Shown here: positions 2,325 to 38,730 of the stretch, in pieces
Layout: each line of letters begins with the position of its first letter
How positions within the stretch are numbered: position 1 is the stretch's first letter
IMG/VR virus record: IMGVR_UViG_3300001737_000001
Coordinates: 1 to 39,892 of that record
From: a virus
DNA length: 39,892 nt
Direction: 5' to 3' (one strand)
Program-made: the position numbers and the translations under genes
The notes under the pieces: generated by a model
Told to the model about the DNA's origin: nothing
Database searches by the model: none
What the model saw: only the letters and a program-made list of their open reading frames with translations

Positions 2325-2925
2325 AGTAGATTTCTTAATGCAAGGATTAAATGTTAATGCAGTACAGGCAAGTTTAGTATCTGAATTAATATCAGATATA
2401 CCAAATGAACAGCTAAAGAATTTTCTAATATTCAGAATGAAGTTTGTGGAAGAATTTAAGAGCAATGAGCTTATAACCAAAACAGCACTTTATGAATATA
2501 GAAGATTACAAATGGAACAAAGACTAAGAGATGGAGAAGAACCATTTGATACAGTAGAGCAGGTACAAAACTTTGTAGAAACATATTACAAAAATAAAGA
2601 CATAGGTTATGGGCTTGGAAAATATTATGACTTTGTTGTACTTGGATTAGATAAAGATTGCAACATATTAAATAAATACTACATAAACGAACACGGAAGC
2701 TACTACAAGCTAAAAAGTGATGAGAAGGCAATAGTGTATGACTTCTTATTTAAAAATCAGTCTAGGATAGGTGTAGTGAAGTATTATACAAGAGAAGAAA
2801 TAGAAAATAAACTAAAGATGATAGAAAACCAAAAAGAAAAAGTTATAGAGATTGATTACAAGGATAATACTATAGACCCTAAGGTAATGGAAATGATGAA
2901 AAAAGCAAAGGATAAAAGAGTTTAA
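2317..2925 (+). CDS. Hypothetical protein, 202 aa, last gene of P1 operon
   Basis: A charged, largely helical protein of unknown function. The N-terminal half (about 1-70) has features of a small helical domain (QASLVSELISDIP); the C-terminal third is very Lys/Glu-rich and probably coiled coil. The ATG overlaps the preceding gene. The stop codon lies inside the TTTAACAA/TTGTTAAA inverted repeat upstream of the next early promoter, so this gene ends the first early transcription unit. Confidence 0.72.
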   Translation: MNRVDFLMQGLNVNAVQASLVSELISDIPNEQLKNFLIFRMKFVEEFKSNELITKTALYEYRRLQMEQRLRDGEEPFDTVEQVQNFVETYYKNKDIGYGLGKYYDFVVLGLDKDCNILNKYYINEHGSYYKLKSDEKAIVYDFLFKNQSRIGVVKYYTREEIENKLKMIENQKEKVIEIDYKDNTIDPKVMEMMKKAKDKRV

Positions 2926-2940
2926 CAAAAAGTTGTTAAA
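2921..2940. promoter_or_regulatory. Inverted repeat upstream of P2 (possible operator)
   Basis: TTTAACAA, a 4-base spacer AAAG, then TTGTTAAA: a perfect 8-bp inverted repeat ending 15 bp before the -35 hexamer of P2. The same element sits at the same distance before P4 (9979-9998), and a version with 5-bp arms lies before P3 (5060-5073). Fixed spacing suggests a protein binding site. It could also serve as a weak terminator of the upstream gene, but no T-tract follows. Confidence 0.55.
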
Positions 2941-2945
2941 ACAAT

Positions 2946-3002
2946 CAAAAACACTTGACAAATACACAAAAACTTGGTATAATTAGGGTATCAAAAGAAA
3001 GT
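2946..3002 (+). promoter_or_regulatory. Early promoter copy 2 (P2)
   Basis: Identical over 57 bp to bases 1-57: TTGACA at 2955-2960, 17-bp spacer, TATAAT at 2978-2983 with TGG in front. It starts the operon of 3014-5000, which includes the variable-region protein at 3374. Confidence 0.88.
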
Positions 3003-3013
3003 AAGGAGATAAA

Positions 3014-3202
3014 ATGGACAAAAAGAAAAGGTATGCAGTAACAGTTGATTTATATGTTTATGCAGAAGATGATGATGAAGCAAAAAAAGAAGCAGAGTTT
3101 TACAAAGAGCATATACAATTAGTTGAAGATAATAAAGCAAATGTTGTATCAATTCACGAAGCACCATTTGCAAAAATGGGAAATTTAAGAGAGGTAAAAT
3201 AA
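3014..3202 (+). CDS. Small hypothetical protein, 62 aa
   Basis: First gene after P2, with a strong AAGGAG ribosome site. It begins RYAVTVDLYVYAEDDDEA, the pattern of small phage proteins with one beta strand, an Asp/Glu/Ala-rich helix and a second strand; the 73-aa protein at 5151 is built similarly (RYEVKFNGVILLKSSTKRDAEA) and also follows an early promoter directly. The function is unknown. Its place as the first product of a strong early promoter is typical of host-takeover proteins, by inference. Confidence 0.72.
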   Translation: MDKKKRYAVTVDLYVYAEDDDEAKKEAEFYKEHIQLVEDNKANVVSIHEAPFAKMGNLREVK

Positions 3203-3203
3203 T

Positions 3204-3377
3204 ATGGCAATAATAATTGAAATTGTAAATCCAAAAATGAATTTATCTAAAAGAATTGATGTAACAAATTACACAAAAGAAGAAAAGATAAAAACATATA
3301 GTGTTTACACAAAAGCAGGTTTTGGAGTTTATGTTGCAGAAGGTATTGAAGAAATTATAAAAGGAGAAAGATTATGA
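3204..3377 (+). CDS. Small hypothetical protein, 57 aa
   Basis: Short ORF filling the gap between the 62-aa gene and the variable-region gene; its ATG lies 1 nt after the previous stop and its own stop overlaps the next ATG (ATGA). It contains an alternation of hydrophobic and polar residues suggesting beta structure (KTYSVYTKAGFGVYVAEG). Function unknown. Codon usage matches its neighbours. Confidence 0.65.
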   Translation: MAIIIEIVNPKMNLSKRIDVTNYTKEEKIKTYSVYTKAGFGVYVAEGIEEIIKGERL

Positions 3378-4357
3378 AAAAAATAAAAATAGGAGAAGGA
3401 AATATGAAAGTAGTTATAGAAACAGAAGAGAGTTTGAATTTTGAAATAAGTGGAGAAACTGTAAAGTTTAAAGTTTTAGTCAATGGTTCAAATAGAATAG
3501 TAGAAGATTTGAATGAAAAAAAAGGCTTAGAGATAAAAAAAGTAAATGCACACACTGTATCAGTAGGTGGACAAAAAATAAGCCTAAATAGCTTAGAGAA
3601 AATCAAAGGCAAAGATTATTTTGTTTATAAAAATTTACATACAAAAAAACATAAAATATCTTTAAGTAAAGATGATGCAGAAGGAAATGAAAAATTAGAA
3701 CTTATCGGTGGATTTCATTATGGACTTTATGATGAAAATTTTAAAGGCAATGAGGATATACCTAAAAAGTATGCAAAAAAGATTAGAGGTATTAATGCTT
3801 ATAGTATTTGGACACAAAATCATAAACCAAAATGTGATGCACAGGGAATGGTTTTTATTCCAAAACTTAAAATTTGGGTAGATATATACTTAACAAATTC
3901 AAACTATAAAGAGAATGGAACATCTGTATCGGAAGGAAAAATCTTAGCAGGTTGGAAAGCAGAAGGAAGAGAAACAGATGGAAGAGAAGAGTTGTTTTTA
4001 AAAGACTTTGTTGAGATAGGAGAAAGCTTTAATAAAAGATTATTAACAAAAAAAGAATTTGAAGTTTGTATGAAAGGTGTATCAGAAGGCAGAAGTGCAG
4101 GTAATATTGATGATGGAACAATACAACACATAGAGTTTTTAATGTCAAGATACGGAATAGAACAGGCAGTTGGAAATCAATGGGTTTGGAGCTTAGATAA
4201 ATATGAAGATAGAGATGATAGACAAGTGATTTTGGGTGGCTATCGTGACGTTGGCGTGCATGCAGGTTCTCGTTGTTCGCATTGGAGCGATTCTCTTTCG
4301 ACTTCGTATTGGGCTTTTGGTTCTCGTTTCGCTTGTGACAACTTGATACTTGACTAA
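3374..4357 (+). CDS. DGR-type variable protein with C-type-lectin/FGE-like C-terminus (early operon)
   Basis: A 327-residue protein whose C-terminal two thirds are homologous to the end of the tail fibre at 33686. Shared landmarks are GGFHYGL (about 116), RGIN..S.W, a WVDIYLTN-type strand, a QAVGNQWVW segment and the final VILGG...DAGSRC-like stretch ending in LILD. This is the formylglycine-enzyme/C-type-lectin fold used by DGR target proteins, whose variable residues form a ligand-binding face. The variable region is residues 285-327. The N-terminal domain (1-110) differs from the fibre's and is unrecognised. It lies in an early operon far from tail genes, so its ligand is unlikely to be simply a tail receptor (inference). 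A second start at 3404 also has a good ribosome site. Confidence 0.8.
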   Translation: MKKIKIGEGNMKVVIETEESLNFEISGETVKFKVLVNGSNRIVEDLNEKKGLEIKKVNAHTVSVGGQKISLNSLEKIKGKDYFVYKNLHTKKHKISLSKDDAEGNEKLELIGGFHYGLYDENFKGNEDIPKKYAKKIRGINAYSIWTQNHKPKCDAQGMVFIPKLKIWVDIYLTNSNYKENGTSVSEGKILAGWKAEGRETDGREELFLKDFVEIGESFNKRLLTKKEFEVCMKGVSEGRSAGNIDDGTIQHIEFLMSRYGIEQAVGNQWVWSLDKYEDRDDRQVILGGYRDVGVHAGSRCSHWSDSLSTSYWAFGSRFACDNLILD

Positions 4358-4374
4358 CGAACGAAAGTGAGTGG
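4226..4374 (+). repeat. DGR variable region 1 plus 3' homing-like end
   Basis: A 149-bp element aligned without gaps to 35033-35181. There are 18 mismatches; 17 are in coding sequence and fall in 12 codons: ten at codon position 1, six at position 2, one at position 3. Every variable codon is consistent with an AAT or AAC codon in a template whose adenines were changed. Conserved codons are CGT, TCG, TCT, GGC and GGT, rare elsewhere in this genome. The shared part continues past the stop codon (4355-4357) as CGAACGAAAGTGAGTGG, the position expected for an initiation-of-mutagenic-homing site. Confidence 0.8.
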
Positions 4375-4378
4375 TATT

Positions 4379-4636
4379 ATGAAAAAGCTTACACAGAAAA
4401 AATGGGTAGAGAGTGTATTGTTTGAAACAAATAAAATAAGCAGAAATCATTGTTTACAAAACTATGTATCAAGACTTGGAGCAATAATAGCAACTCTAAA
4501 AAGTGAAGGATATGAGTTTGAAGCAGACTATGTAGAATATCAAACACTTATGGGTTGGAGTGGAAAAGATTATGTGTACACAGTTACAAAGTTTCCAAAA
4601 GAAATACAGGAGAAAATAGATGCAAGGAATAAATAA
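4379..4636 (+). CDS. Helix-turn-helix protein (HTH_39-like)
   Basis: About 85 residues. The segment SRNHCLQNYVSRLGAIIATL followed by KSEGYEFE matches small phage winged-helix proteins of the HTH_39 type (ALxxYxISRLAxxIxxLRxxGYxIE), so it probably binds DNA. A GTG at 4367 inside the shared DGR element could add four residues (MSGI), but ATG 4379 is the safer start. It overlaps the next gene by 17 nt. It may regulate the early operon; that is inference from fold and position. Confidence 0.65.
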   Translation: MKKLTQKKWVESVLFETNKISRNHCLQNYVSRLGAIIATLKSEGYEFEADYVEYQTLMGWSGKDYVYTVTKFPKEIQEKIDARNK

Positions 4637-5000
4637 TTTATTAGAGTGTCCATTTTGTGAAAGCAACAATCAAAAACAAATAATTTCAGTAAATAGAATT
4701 AGTGAAAGTGAATGGAAAACAGATGGTTGTTATATAGAGTGTGAGTGCGGAGCAAGAAGCGGAAAAGAAGAAACACTAAATGATGCAGTAGCAAGATGGA
4801 ATAGAGATTATGAATATTTTATTAAAAAAGATGGAACACCAAATCTTTTTACAGTAAAATTTATAGCATACACAAAAGGATATAGTGGCTACAAAGGAGA
4901 AGAGCAGTATGAATTTGAAGCAGAAAATATGGAAGATGCAAGACATTGGGTTATAAATCATTTAGATTGTAGTTGCCAGTGGACTATAAAAGAACTATAA
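4620..5000 (+). CDS. Lar-like restriction alleviation family protein
   Basis: The N-terminal half has the Lar-type zinc-ribbon layout: CPFC at residues 10-13, CEC at 41-43, then DAVARWNR (56-62), equivalent to the AIxAWNxR tail of Lar-family domains. Lar of Rac prophage modulates type I restriction; most phage homologues are annotated by domain only and many may do something else. The C-terminal 60 residues form an extra domain (FTVKFIAYTKGYSGYKGEEQ) that I do not recognise. It is the last gene of the P2 operon, followed by a strong hairpin. Confidence 0.62.
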   Translation: MQGINNLLECPFCESNNQKQIISVNRISESEWKTDGCYIECECGARSGKEETLNDAVARWNRDYEYFIKKDGTPNLFTVKFIAYTKGYSGYKGEEQYEFEAENMEDARHWVINHLDCSCQWTIKEL

Positions 5001-5011
5001 TATAAACTACA

Positions 5012-5041
5012 GGAGTGCATAAAGTAACTACAATGCACTCC
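5012..5041 (+). terminator. Hairpin after P2 operon
   Basis: GGAGTGCAT (5012-5020), 12-nt loop, ATGCACTCC (5033-5041): a perfect 9-bp stem starting 12 nt after the Lar-like stop codon. On the + strand it is followed by A-rich rather than T-rich sequence, so it is not a textbook intrinsic terminator; it may be a transcript-stabilising 3' hairpin or a terminator needing a factor. Confidence 0.6.
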
Positions 5042-5059
5042 AAAAAACTACAAAAAGAA

Positions 5060-5138
5060 AACAAAAAGTTGTTAAAACAATCAAAAACACTTGACAAATA
5101 CACAAAAACTTGGTATAATTAGGGTATCAAAAGAAAGT
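5060..5138 (+). promoter_or_regulatory. Early promoter copy 3 (P3) with upstream inverted repeat
   Basis: The 57-bp promoter block occupies 5082-5138, with TTGACA 5091-5096 and TATAAT 5114-5119 (17-bp spacer). Just upstream, AACAA-AAAG-TTGTT (5060-5073) is the core of the operator-like repeat found before P2 and P4, but with 5-bp instead of 8-bp arms, because the left flank differs. Confidence 0.86.
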
Positions 5139-5150
5139 AAGGAGTTAAAA

Positions 5151-5372
5151 ATGGCAAAGAGATATGAAGTTAAATTCAATGGTGTAATTTTACTAAAATC
5201 ATCTACGAAAAGAGATGCAGAAGCATTTATGAGAAAGTTAAACAAAGACAATATGAGAATAAAAAAAATTGCACAAAAAATAGAAGATGAAGGTGGGCAA
5301 GTGTTTGGAACAGTTTACTTAGATAAAGTAGATGGGGATTATGAATATCCAATAAAACAAAAAAGGATTTAA
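5151..5372 (+). CDS. Small hypothetical protein, 73 aa
   Basis: First gene after P3; ATG 5151 follows an AAGGAG site, while an upstream start would lie inside the promoter. The sequence RYEVKFNGVILLKSSTKRDAEAFM is a strand-strand-helix pattern like that of the 62-aa protein at 3014. Basic overall. Function unknown. Confidence 0.72.
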   Translation: MAKRYEVKFNGVILLKSSTKRDAEAFMRKLNKDNMRIKKIAQKIEDEGGQVFGTVYLDKVDGDYEYPIKQKRI

Positions 5373-5373
5373 G

Positions 5374-5934
5374 TTGAAAAAGCTAACAGATAAACAAAAT
5401 GTGCAGATTGAAAGAAAAAGTGGAAGATTGAAAGATTTAGGAATTACAATAAAGTGTTACATTTTTGTAAGTGGATATGATAAAAATTCTACACATAGTG
5501 AAGATGTAACAGCATTTGGTTTACAACACAGTTCAATTCTAACAAAAGAAGATAACTCAAAAGATATTGAAGAGAAAGAAGCTTCAACACTTTTGGTAGA
5601 TGGAGAAATGGTTGAAATAGATGGTAAAAAATATGTTACACACTTAGCAGGGGATTATTCAGATGCTATATGGTTTAAAGAAGTTGGATACAAAGAATTA
5701 GTTGAGATTAATAAAAGTAAAAATTTACTTGAAGGTAGAATTACAAGAGGTGCTTATAAAGATTATATCGGTAGATTTTGTGAAAACTCTTCACAGGGGA
5801 AAACTTTTGTAGTCTTTAATGCAGATGGTAAAACAGTTGAAATAATAGATGCAGATAAAAGAATAGATAGTGAATACTTTGATAGCAAACAAGTATCTAA
5901 AATTTGGTTATCACAGTTTAGGAGAGAAAAGTAA
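5374..5934 (+). CDS. Hypothetical protein, 186 aa (TTG start)
   Basis: Begins with TTG 1 nt after the previous stop, with AAAGGA upstream. I do not recognise the family. It has several strands typical of a beta-rich protein (LLVDGEMVEIDGKKYVTHLAGD) and ends 1 nt into the next ATG (TAATG). The acidic/basic mix and lack of cysteines say little about function. Confidence 0.68.
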   Translation: MKKLTDKQNVQIERKSGRLKDLGITIKCYIFVSGYDKNSTHSEDVTAFGLQHSSILTKEDNSKDIEEKEASTLLVDGEMVEIDGKKYVTHLAGDYSDAIWFKEVGYKELVEINKSKNLLEGRITRGAYKDYIGRFCENSSQGKTFVVFNADGKTVEIIDADKRIDSEYFDSKQVSKIWLSQFRREK

Positions 5935-33685: not shown

Positions 33686-35164
33686 ATGTTAAATTACGGA
33701 ACAAAAATAGATAACAATGAAACGAGTGCAGGAGTTGTAGTAGCAAAAGAATACAACTCAATTATGAGTGAGCAGAAAAATACAGTATTGCCATTTTTGG
33801 GGCTAGATGAACTAGACAATAAACAGCAAGTAAAAGCAATAGATATTGCAAGTAAAGCTATGTATTATTCAGATACAGGAACAGCAAATAGTATTATATT
33901 GTCAAGAGGTGCAACAACAGAAACAATAGAAACACTATTTGAGGGAATGGTAATAATGTTCACACCTGCAAATATAAACACAGGTGCAACAACAATAAAA
34001 ATAAAAACACTTGATGCAAAGCCTTTATATTATGATGGTTCAGAATTAACAGCAGGTTTTTTAAGTTCAGAAAAAACATATACAGCAGTTTATTCAGTTG
34101 CGAATGGAAGATTTAATATACAAAAAAACTTTTCAGCAGGAGCAGAAGGTGGTGGAGTTTTAAATAATGCTTTTTCTAAGCCAGTAACAAAAGCACCATT
34201 ATTTCAAAAGGTAAATGCTTCAACAATAAAAGTTCCTAGTGCTACAAGTATTGTAGTTGATGGAGAAACTGTAACATTGGAAACAGATACAAACTTGTCT
34301 TTAGATACAAACCTTGATACAGGTATAAAAACAGCAGGTACTGATTATTATGTTTATGTAAAAACTGATGGAACATTGTATTTAAGTAGTGATAATAATA
34401 CAGGCTTAGGAAGAGTTATTGGTGGTTTTCATTATGGACTTGTAGGAGAAGCAGAAGTATCTACAGGCAGTAAAACTGAAACAATAATGACAGAGATAAG
34501 AGGTATAAATAAAAATTCATTTTGGGATTTAACTTGGCTACCTGCAAATGGAGATGCAAGAGGTATGCACTATAAGTTTGGAATATGGGTTGATATTTAC
34601 CAAACAGATGAAGATTATGGAATTAGAGGATATTCTAAGGCAGGTGGAAAAATTGCAGGTGGAACAACTGATTATGGAAGAGGAATACCAAAAATACCAT
34701 TAGTATTTGGTGGAGATGGAACTTTAACATACGGAAAATATACTTGGTTTCAGGCAAGTGAAGTTGGAAAAGCATTTAAGAAAAGACTTTTAAAATATGA
34801 AGAATTTATTGCATTTGCTTATGGAGTAGATGAAGGGAAATCATCATCAACTAATGGATATGAAACAACAGCAGGACAAATAGAGCATTATCCAAATTTA
34901 ACAAGTGCAACAGGAATGGAACAGGCAACAGGTGTTCAGTGGGTTTGGGGTGCAGATTTTGGAACTTCATCATCAGGAAGTTATAATAATATTACAGATG
35001 GAAGAGGTAGTGTATATACAAACGCAAATCCAGTGCGTTTGGGTGGCAGCCGTGGCAGTGGCGTGGATGCAGGTTCTCGTTGTTCGGATTGGAGCTATTC
35101 TCTTTCGAGTTCGGGTTGGTCTGTTGGTTCTCGTTTCGCTTGTGACCACTTGATACTTGACTAA
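33686..35164 (+). CDS. Tail fibre / DGR variable protein
   Basis: 492 residues. N-terminal fibre module (about 1-150; VIMFTPANINTGATTIKIKT typical of fibre attachment domains), a middle beta-rich part, then the C-type-lectin/FGE-like domain from RVIGGFHYGLVGE (about 243) through RGINKNSFWDLTW, TGMEQATGVQWVWG to the variable end VRLGGSRGSGVDAGSR (from 450) and the final LILD. Its last 43 residues are variable region 2. As in BPP-1 Mtd, this would be the receptor-binding tip whose variation changes host range (inference). Followed by Avd. Confidence 0.82.
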   Translation: MLNYGTKIDNNETSAGVVVAKEYNSIMSEQKNTVLPFLGLDELDNKQQVKAIDIASKAMYYSDTGTANSIILSRGATTETIETLFEGMVIMFTPANINTGATTIKIKTLDAKPLYYDGSELTAGFLSSEKTYTAVYSVANGRFNIQKNFSAGAEGGGVLNNAFSKPVTKAPLFQKVNASTIKVPSATSIVVDGETVTLETDTNLSLDTNLDTGIKTAGTDYYVYVKTDGTLYLSSDNNTGLGRVIGGFHYGLVGEAEVSTGSKTETIMTEIRGINKNSFWDLTWLPANGDARGMHYKFGIWVDIYQTDEDYGIRGYSKAGGKIAGGTTDYGRGIPKIPLVFGGDGTLTYGKYTWFQASEVGKAFKKRLLKYEEFIAFAYGVDEGKSSSTNGYETTAGQIEHYPNLTSATGMEQATGVQWVWGADFGTSSSGSYNNITDGRGSVYTNANPVRLGGSRGSGVDAGSRCSDWSYSLSSSGWSVGSRFACDHLILD

Positions 35165-35181
35165 CGAACGGAAGTGAGTGG
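35033..35181 (+). repeat. DGR variable region 2 plus 3' homing-like end
   Basis: The 149-bp partner of 4226-4374. It ends the fibre gene (stop 35162-35164) and continues as CGAACGGAAGTGAGTGG; the only difference from copy 1 after the stop is one A/G change. Adenine makes up about a tenth of the 129 coding bases here and about an eighth in copy 1, against a very A-rich genome. The shared element contains the GTG that could start the avd gene. Confidence 0.8.
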
Positions 35182-35185
35182 AGAA

Positions 35186-35596
35186 ATGCAAAAAAGACAA
35201 TCTGAAGGCGGTTTAGTTATCATAGAAAAATATGATAAGTTTCTAAGCTATATATATCCACGACTTCAAGAGATACCACGAAAACACGGAATACTGAAAG
35301 AAAAAACAATTCTTTTAGTATTTCAACAGGCAGAACTAATATATAGACTTATAAAAACAAAGCCAATCAATAAAACAAAACTTTATGATTTAGATGCAGG
35401 ACTTGCAACAGTTAGACATCATCTAAGATTTTTAGCAGAAACAAGAAATGTAACAGTAGTTTTTGATAAAGAAAGTGGAAAGTCAATAAGAAAAGAAGGT
35501 AAGTTTTTATTAGATAAAAAAGCACATACTACAGCATCAATTTTAATAGCAGAAGTTGGAAAAATAGTAGGCACAATGATGAAAGATAGCAAATAG
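35186..35596 (+). CDS. avd: DGR accessory variability determinant (Avd-like)
   Basis: A 136-residue helical protein (from ATG 35186; a GTG at 35174 inside the shared element would add four). It follows the four-helix-bundle Avd plan: IEKYDKFLSYIYPRLQEIPR with helix-ending Pro-Arg, KTILLVFQQAELIYRLI, the central DAGLATVRHHLRFLAET (LRxLRFLLRLA in relatives) and a final IAEVGKIVGTMM (EIGRMLGGW). Avd is a positively charged pentamer that binds the DGR reverse transcriptase and template RNA during mutagenic retrohoming. Here neither partner is encoded nearby. It directly follows the variable fibre, its normal place. Confidence 0.8.
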   Translation: MQKRQSEGGLVIIEKYDKFLSYIYPRLQEIPRKHGILKEKTILLVFQQAELIYRLIKTKPINKTKLYDLDAGLATVRHHLRFLAETRNVTVVFDKESGKSIRKEGKFLLDKKAHTTASILIAEVGKIVGTMMKDSK

Positions 35597-35690: not shown

Positions 35691-36182
35691 ATGACAAAAG
35701 AAAGATTAGAAGAGCTTTTTGAATATGATAAAAGTACAGGAAATTTTATAAGAAAATGTACGACTTCAAGCAATGCTAAAAAACACACAATAGCAGGATA
35801 TAAAACAAAAGAAGGATATATAAAAATATCAATTGATGGAAAAAAATATCTTGCACATCGTTTGGTTTGGCTTTATGTATATGGATATATGCCAAAACAG
35901 ATAGACCATATAGACCACAATAGAGCAAATAACACAATATGTAATTTGAGAGATACTACACAAAAAGAAAATTGTAAAAATTCATCATTACGAAAAGATA
36001 ATACAACAGGCATAAGTGGAGTGTATTTTGATAAAAAAAGAAAATTATTTAAAGTTCAAATTTCAAAAGGAAATAAAGATTTATTTTTTGGAAGATACAA
36101 AAGTTTTAAAGAAGCAGTAAAAGTAAGAAATAGTGCTTACTTTGAGTTAGAATATCATAAAAATCACGGAAAAAATTTATAA
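35691..36182 (+). CDS. HNH homing endonuclease with AP2-like DNA-binding domain
   Basis: 163 residues. HNH core: AHRLVWLYVYGYMPKQIDHI with DHIDHNRANNTICNLRD (about 76-92), then an AP2/GIY-type domain TGISGVYFDKKRKLFKVQIS ... FFGRYKSFKEAVKVR (about 104-150). It is a paralogue of the protein at 38227. Its own promoter and position after avd, where a DGR usually has its template repeat and reverse transcriptase, suggest it is a mobile insertion. Confidence 0.85.
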   Translation: MTKERLEELFEYDKSTGNFIRKCTTSSNAKKHTIAGYKTKEGYIKISIDGKKYLAHRLVWLYVYGYMPKQIDHIDHNRANNTICNLRDTTQKENCKNSSLRKDNTTGISGVYFDKKRKLFKVQISKGNKDLFFGRYKSFKEAVKVRNSAYFELEYHKNHGKNL

Positions 36183-36197
36183 AACAGGAGTTAGAAT

Positions 36198-36602
36198 ATG
36201 CAAAATTTAATTACAGTACCAATGGTTGATGTTATATCAGAAATGACAGGAAGAACAGTAGTTATGAAAGATACAAGTTATGTATTTTTTGATACAAAAG
36301 AAGTAGTAGATGATGAAACTATGAATGAAGCAGTTTTATTGAAAAAACAAAAAGAAGATAAGCTTAACTTTGAAAAAAGTAAAGAAATAGGAGAAATTTA
36401 CACATTGAACAATGTTGATTATGTTGTTTCTTTTATGAAAAATGATGCAGATGGAATGATGCAGGTAAGTATGGCTTTCCAACTAGGACTTACAGAAACA
36501 ATTATAAACTTTGAAAATGGAACAAAGATGCCTATTAAAAGCACAGAGTTTGAAGAGTTTGCACTTTGGTTTGTTGGTAAAAGAAATAGCTATTTTGTTT
36601 AG
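36198..36602 (+). CDS. DUF4376-like tail-associated protein
   Basis: 134 residues. The C-terminal ~85 residues, YTLNNVDYVVSFMKNDADG then MQVSMAFQLGLTETIINF and NGTKMPIKSTEFEEFALWFV, fit the DUF4376 pattern found next to tail fibres, which I recall but cannot verify. Likely a fibre-associated or fibre-assembly protein. It lies between two endonuclease genes, so the original fibre-avd-DUF4376 order was probably interrupted. Confidence 0.62.
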   Translation: MQNLITVPMVDVISEMTGRTVVMKDTSYVFFDTKEVVDDETMNEAVLLKKQKEDKLNFEKSKEIGEIYTLNNVDYVVSFMKNDADGMMQVSMAFQLGLTETIINFENGTKMPIKSTEFEEFALWFVGKRNSYFV

Positions 36603-38226: not shown

Positions 38227-38730
38227 ATGATAACACAAAAGTATGTAAAAAGTATTTTAAATTATGATAAAGAAACAGGAATATTTACTTGGAAAGTAGC
38301 GAAGGGAAGTCGTGGAAAAATTGGTAATATTGCAGGTAATGTAAAAAAAGATAGTGGTCGCATAGTTATAGTTATAGATAAAAAGAATTATAAGGCACAT
38401 AGACTTGCTTGGCTATATGAATATGGCTATATGCCAAAAGAACACATAGACCATAAAAATCATAATACATTAGATAATAGTATTAAAAATCTAAGGTTAG
38501 TAACACATCAGGTAAATATGAAAAACAGAAGCATACCAAAACATAATACAAGTGGTGTTATGGGTGTATGTTGGAGTGAAAAAAGAAATAGATGGTATGC
38601 ACAAATAGCACTAGATAGAAAAAATAAATTCTTAGGATATTTTACAGATTTTTCAGATGCAGTAAATGCAAGAAAAAATGCAGAAGTCTTATATGGTTAT
38701 TACAAAAATCACGGAGCAGAAAATGTTTAG
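38227..38730 (+). CDS. HNH homing endonuclease with AP2-like domain (paralogue)
   Basis: 167 residues, same layout as 35691: HRLAWLYEYGYMPKEHIDHK with DHKNHNTLDNSIKNLR and an AP2-like C-terminus (VMGVCWSEKRNRWYAQI ... FLGYFTDFSDAVNA). Both end in YKNHG. It interrupts the lysis genes between the holin-like and spanin genes and has its own promoter. Its stop overlaps the inner spanin start by 8 nt. Confidence 0.85.
   Translation: MITQKYVKSILNYDKETGIFTWKVAKGSRGKIGNIAGNVKKDSGRIVIVIDKKNYKAHRLAWLYEYGYMPKEHIDHKNHNTLDNSIKNLRLVTHQVNMKNRSIPKHNTSGVMGVCWSEKRNRWYAQIALDRKNKFLGYFTDFSDAVNARKNAEVLYGYYKNHGAENV

Follow-up and report, generated by a model that had tools for sequence, protein, structure and literature searches.

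The early region of the phage genome analysed here (a stretch of 39,892 bases, hereafter the window) holds a gene that is probably a remote second target of a DGR, with a product that belongs to a family of tail-less Mtd-type lectins and would act as a diversified binder inside the cell. Phage DGRs are mostly read as host-range devices; if this explanation is true, targeted hypermutation also serves phages inside the cell, with a single machinery that rewrites an inner protein along with the fibre. As we picture it, a Mtd-type lectin without the fibre's N-terminal, tail-anchoring part, by now a family of its own, would be encoded by an accessory gene that sits in early, replication or lysogeny regions, and Avd, reverse transcriptase and template would act on two sites at once, the fibre tip and the early protein. 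The latter would act as a binder that does not leave the infected cell or the lysogen, and diversification would let it follow a variable ligand. The setting would most likely be phage-host or phage-phage conflict, in which the protein would bind part of a host defence or a protein from a competing phage. More tentatively, and with some doubt on our part, it may be an evolvable intracellular receptor: a tail-less lectin, written from the fibre's template, that tracks a changing target in the cell and that in at least one prophage would be all that the DGR writes, a hypervariable protein that the lysogen expresses for defence or exclusion. The family is a defined, testable set of genes for asking what remote DGR targets do, and it includes a prophage in which just one target was detected.

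The early gene and its product

The gene (Table 1) is an intact frame of 327 codons, and an alternative ATG at 3404, which likewise has a ribosome-site-like sequence ahead of it, corresponds to where the homologue begins in a related genome, G002. Its match to phrog_11262 begins at profile position 71, and the profile of its family matches Mtd chains of the PDB at up to 7e-35. An AlphaFold model built on 61 alignment rows reached a pLDDT of 87.8, with residues 1-48 mostly below 60; a second structure prediction, aimed at this N-terminal extension, was poor (pLDDT 44). Foldseek pairs the model with Mtd at an E of 1e-20, VIA-align superposes 256 residues (model residues 49 to 326) on 1yu3 with a Z of 31.8 and an rmsd of 2.0, and chains of the FGE type align from residues 143-157 onward. 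The lectin-like fold suggested by the earlier note is thus confirmed by model, Foldseek and VIA-align.

Mtd domains 2 and 3 are present by profile and structural alignment, the tight structural alignments beginning at Mtd residue 56-58, and no counterpart of the first (N-terminal) Mtd domain was found in structural alignment, model or homologue comparison. In Mtd it is this domain that anchors the protein to the tail. Because the alignment starts at residue 49 and four of the nine family members begin right at the sandwich, we take the early protein to be Mtd domains 2 and 3. The different N-terminal domain that had been proposed for it did not hold up: residues 1-48 are mostly of low confidence, four of nine members do without the extension, and the difference from the fibre N-terminus lies mainly in the loss of the fibre's N-terminal part. 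Overall, the early target is 42% identical to the fibre protein of the window. Judged by hydropathy only, none of the nine members has a strongly hydrophobic stretch, and no signal peptide or membrane segment is suggested.

Table 1. Features of the window (all on the + strand)
Feature	Position	Strand	Basis
Promoter P2, TTGACA-17-TATAAT	2955..2983	+	12/12 consensus matches; TG before -10
Early DGR target, Mtd homologue without the first domain, 327 aa	3374..4357	+	phrog_11262 8.7e-43; tree
N-terminal extension, residues 1-48	3374..3517	+	low model confidence; absent from 4/9 homologues
Mtd second domain (beta-sandwich), about residues 54-120, approximate edges	3533..3733	+	PF21916 7.2e-05 (just below cut-off); model; structural alignment
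C-type lectin domain, Mtd/FGE type, about residues 143-327, approximate edges	3800..4354	+	structural alignment
Variable repeat of the early target (core), codons 287-322	4232..4339	+	match to fibre repeat
3' element GAACGAAAGTGA, after the early repeat	4359..4370	+	GAAA fits the GRNA loop rule of DGR target hairpins
Small neighbour gene, function not assigned	4379..4636	+	phrog_4973, 5.4e-06
Weak Lar-like restriction-alleviation protein	4620..5000	+	phrog_599 6e-08; below Pfam and NCBIfam cut-offs
Tail fibre, Mtd type, the other DGR target	33686..35164	+	phrog_11262 8.1e-73; PF21916 3.8e-16; after baseplate genes
Variable repeat of the fibre (core)	35039..35146	+	match to early repeat
3' element GAACGGAAGTGA, after the fibre repeat	35166..35177	+	motif search
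Avd, DGR accessory protein, start possibly 35186	35174..35596	+	PF22296 2.3e-21; NF033474 6.8e-18, below its cut-off
HNH endonuclease gene, in place of the G002 template and reverse transcriptase	35691..36182	+	PF13392 1.5e-13; gene order

Repeats, templates and the recognition element

The early and fibre repeats of the window are identical at 94 of 108 bases. They agree at 84 of the 85 positions that are not adenine in the template of another relative, G003, and where they differ, at 14 positions, the G002 and G003 templates have an adenine in 13 cases (hypergeometric p = 7e-10) and the template in G007 in 12; for the window itself, a record without a template, the test is thus an indirect one through relatives. 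Since the repeats are far more alike than the proteins that contain them and differ at template adenines, the genes appear to have diverged first and to have received their repeats from a single template later.

Direct comparison with a template comes from six relatives, the window, G004 and G006 being left out as records without one (in G006 it was sought and not found). Mismatches between early repeat and template number 13/30 at adenines against 0/94 at other bases in G002, 8/26 against 0/84 in G003, 15/30 against 0/76 in G005, 10/23 against 1/91 in G007, 9/28 against 7/94 in contig L179, where the seven cluster at the 3' end, and 7/24 against 0/90 in contig L180, whose template lies on L182 of the same MAG. 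Summed, they amount to 62 of 161 adenines and 8 of 529 other bases, under a match-delimiting score that is milder on template-adenine mismatches and so favours the adenine result somewhat. Five fibre repeats behave alike (6/25 and 0/91, 9/29 and 0/90, 9/25 and 0/96, 12/28 and 0/91, 11/26 and 0/93 at adenines and other bases, respectively), with totals of 47/133 and 0/461. That the early protein is a DGR target, as the earlier note held, is borne out by the repeat, the adenine-restricted differences in relatives and the C-type lectin fold around the repeat.

Several details of these loci stand apart. The early target at L180:4198-5022 and the DGR cassette at L182:7108-8808 lie on two contigs of similar coverage from one Sulfurimonas MAG, and all 90 non-adenine bases of the L182 template match the L180 repeat. 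In G007 (L177:9793-11130) the template repeat lies within the reverse transcriptase's open frame of 445 aa, like a translated N-terminal extension, and in the Faavne Sulfurimonas MAG the reverse transcriptase region (L179:17368-17835) consists of short frames only, through decay or sequencing error. In the alignment column of window residue 323 (4340-4342), a histidine follows the ACD motif in 49 of 52 fibres and in three of the eight early proteins that have a residue at this place.

A short element follows both repeats. Across 342,031 bases (the window and ten related sources, both strands) the motif GA[AG]CGRNAG[CT]GA occurs 12 times. A variable repeat ends immediately upstream of 11 occurrences, the twelfth (L176:3685) lying elsewhere; a filter flagged ten of the 11, and the one it missed (L177:9458) lies four bases past the stop codon of the G007 fibre. 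The motif stands after the early repeats of the window, G002, G003, G005 and L180, and close variants of it after those of G004, G007 and L179. A simple stem search in the window preferred another hairpin, one that did not score above shuffles, as was mostly so for stem scores overall; of the two, the sequence motif is the stronger evidence. The available text of PMC3240598 (Guo et al.) describes a hairpin after the repeat, with a GRNA loop, as required for efficient homing, and relocation of the IMH and hairpin region as enough to turn another gene into a target. The early and fibre genes have one repeat in common and share a type of 3' recognition element, and therefore the DGR is taken to act on both.

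The window genome and its incomplete DGR

The first and last 93 bases of the record are identical, so it closes into a circle. Terminase, portal, major head protein, tail sheath, tape measure and baseplate genes identify a contractile-tailed phage, the first 7 kb hold an exonuclease VIII-like gene and replication-type genes, and no integrase-family match was found in the window. The early target had been described as far from the tail genes, which is right for the 29 kb that separate it from the fibre along the record and for its place outside the tail module; because the record closes on itself, however, it lies just ~8 kb beyond the fibre round the circle. There the early operon comes after the tail and end-of-genome genes, and late transcription could therefore read through into it.

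The target begins 0.4 kb behind P2, one of the exact 34-base copies of TTGACAAATACACAAAAACTTGGTATAATTAGGG at 10, 2955, 5091, 10013 and 39809 (chance expectation 0), the last being the terminal-overlap copy of the first. The record thus has four identical perfect sigma-70-type promoters, every one in its first quarter. Of the proposed expression from P2, the promoter stands as sequence and no terminator-like site was found in 2800-5400; transcription of the gene from it is predicted. The two genes named as its companions in the operon are less secure: the helix-turn-helix label of the small neighbour has no Pfam or NCBIfam match, and the Lar-like label of the next gene has its PHROG match but remains weak, under the Pfam and NCBIfam cut-offs.

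An Avd is clearly kept (76.7 bits against a PF22296 cut-off of 40). No reverse transcriptase was found in the window by motif scan or as an RVT_1 match at E up to 1, nor was a template when a third repeat was sought on either strand. In G002, template and reverse transcriptase lie between fibre plus Avd on one side and the homologue of window 36198-36602 on the other; the window has an HNH gene instead of template and reverse transcriptase. With reverse transcriptase and template absent and Avd retained, the window genome cannot diversify the early gene alone, so the notion that it is currently doing so is not supported, and its early variant is probably frozen unless the missing parts come from elsewhere.

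A further relative, G001 (end overlap 127 bases), has a shortened Avd whose end, by eye, resembles the end of the G002 reverse transcriptase, and on that account it appears to have lost the same DGR parts by a separate deletion. At L001:10001-10318 the start of Avd is apparently fused to the end of the DGR reverse transcriptase through that deletion. The window and G001 look like two independent losses of reverse transcriptase in which the repeats stayed intact. The HNH gene of the window at 35691-36182 is related to another at 38227-38730, both of the HNH_3 type.

A family of early targets

Relatives were slow to appear: neither the DNA pattern of the window repeat, sought in viral contigs, nor the early protein alone as query found any, and a first scan of genome contigs yielded zero members. 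The family first surfaced through relatives of Avd and then through alignment searches: two aligned members, scanned against viral contigs, brought up 244 relatives, of which 80 were kept, and seven, scanned against genome contigs, brought up 15 loci. Nine members emerged, namely the window, G002, G003, G004, G005, G006, G007 and the Sulfurimonas MAG contigs L179 and L180, together with a partial tenth that an Arcobacteraceae MAG has at the edge of a contig. A tree of 61 rows, built with the repeat excluded, places the nine on one side of a branch with support of 100/100 and a length of 0.85; a recent duplication of the fibre as origin of the early target is rejected by this tree. Compared with four fibres aligned alongside, all nine are without the insertion before the KRLL motif and without the RGxxY segment.

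Any match at 1e-30 was found in only six of 398 Campylobacterales genomes, with one full-length early type and the partial one among them; 50,697 phage records gave 14 matches, which are Mtd or other tail-type genes where so annotated, and a plasmid search gave zero. The MAG relatives point to Campylobacterota as the probable host group. Five pairs computed among four members have dN/dS values of 0.12-0.26, the window gene itself being too diverged for the test; these values support a functional gene apparently under purifying selection, and a pseudogene reading is rejected by them and by the intact frame. At ten variable sites, aromatic residues and histidine are commoner in the early family (32/90 against 114/520, p 0.007), a hint only, drawn from related sequences and hand-picked sites.

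The gene has different neighbourhoods in different genomes. It occupies the early operon behind P2 in the window and, two genes ahead of a single-strand-binding-like gene, the early operon of G002; in G003 it follows excisionase- and integrase-like genes and precedes an exonuclease-like gene, and in L180 it sits between CII-like and O-like genes. In G007 it comes after a DnaB-like helicase gene and one gene upstream of terminase, an arrangement that G004 and L179 share by the look of the sequence; because the gene lies directly before terminase, late expression is possible in these three. In G006 it is at the record start beside an HNH gene, with a ligase 9 kb further. The prophage G005 places it between a CI-like repressor and an integrase, whose strand it shares, as do Avd, template and reverse transcriptase. 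The opposite strand carries terminase, portal, head, tape measure, fibre-assembly and helicase genes; no other Mtd-type gene or DGR target was detected in G005. A phosphoadenosine phosphosulfate reductase-like gene (L172:15189-16118) lies between its DGR and integrase.

None of the nine is inside a tail module, G006 being judged from the HNH/ligase stretch alone. In G001, which has no early target, the counterparts of 3204-3377 and 4379-4636 have a few bases in common; those of G002 also overlap, its early target being elsewhere in the early operon. The empty site in G001 and the different position in G002 mark an accessory gene. By position only, it is a gene of early or lysogeny regions. The earlier placing of the target in an early operon stands: it lies among early and replication genes outside the tail module, and since such a target recurs in relatives, a dead copy of the fibre is very unlikely.

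Competing explanations

The non-structural reading first proposed for the early protein fits its position, the missing first Mtd domain and the prophage case in a lysogeny region; where the protein resides is suggested by this genomic context, and it would be a cytoplasmic, non-virion binder in conflict, for which we infer a host or defence ligand. Alternatively, it could belong to the virion, as a second receptor-binding tip or a substitute for the first that attaches to the tail by way of its lectin or sandwich domain, seeing that its fold and closest known relatives are those of tail tips and that in G007 and L179 the gene lies by terminase, ~2.7 kb upstream of the fibre. We consider this unlikely, given that the fibre part preceding the sandwich is missing or swapped for a short extension in all nine members, that elsewhere the gene is found in early or lysogeny regions, and that the structural module of G005, fibre assembly gene included, is on the other strand.

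Less probable again is an exclusion factor, expressed from the prophage or during infection, that binds the receptor or the tail tips of competing phages and so confers superinfection resistance. The lysogeny-side position in G005, the CI/CII-like genes nearby in L180 and a fold and template shared with the receptor-binding fibre would suit such a factor, but hydropathy suggests no signal peptide or membrane segment, and variable-site residues are not significantly shared between an early protein and the fibre of the same phage (permutation p 0.1, six phages, one pairing contigs L180 and L182). The idea that both proteins of a phage bind the same ligand was set aside on this result. The near identity of the window repeats outside adenine sites might also suggest that the gene is a spare cassette from which the fibre acquires repeat variants by recombination and whose own protein has no function. 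We regard this as highly improbable, as a common template explains the likeness, the protein outside the repeat forms a clade of its own and is under purifying selection, and G005 has no other detected Mtd-type gene for such a cassette to serve. A remote second target that yields an intracellular binder remains our preferred reading.

Comparison with known systems

Mtd of Bordetella phage BPP-1 (PDB 1yu0-1yu4) resembles the early target in its beta-sandwich, C-type lectin domain and C-terminal variable repeat (Z about 32), and the BPP-1 DGR is alike in its Avd and in a GRNA-type element after the repeat. Unlike BPP-1 Mtd, however, the early target is without the first Mtd domain and the fibre-specific insertions, lies in early or lysogeny regions and is a second target in most relatives, and the window genome, unlike the BPP-1 DGR, is without reverse transcriptase or template. 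No title or abstract found in the literature searched names the early family, and we did not find in print, within the available portions of those sources, a Mtd-derived family of this kind, its spread across Campylobacterota-type phages or a case in which it is the only target. A large survey (PMC8144416) would, by its available text, leave undetected any target that does not adjoin the reverse transcriptase.

The concept of a remote second target is not new, since distal second DGR targets are published in what is available of PMC8008677 and PMC12629997. Quimbyvirus (Benler et al. 2021, PMC8008677) is described there as having a second C-type lectin target away from the structural module and near defence-related genes, thought to be non-structural. 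That is a Bacteroidota gut phage, whereas the present case is a family of nine, once as the only detected target; no Bacteroides phage was among the 14 family matches in the phage records, a collection outside which Quimbyvirus may lie. Four gut prophage species in the accessible part of PMC12629997 carry a second variable repeat distal from the reverse transcriptase and near counter-defence genes; these are human gut phages, and their likeness to the early family is one of repeat position and neighbourhood. In two-target DGR phages with tentaclins, as the available text of PMC10743442 presents them, both targets are written from one template, but both lie in the DGR cassette, the second with its repeat near the 5' end, and they are proposed as receptor-binding proteins.
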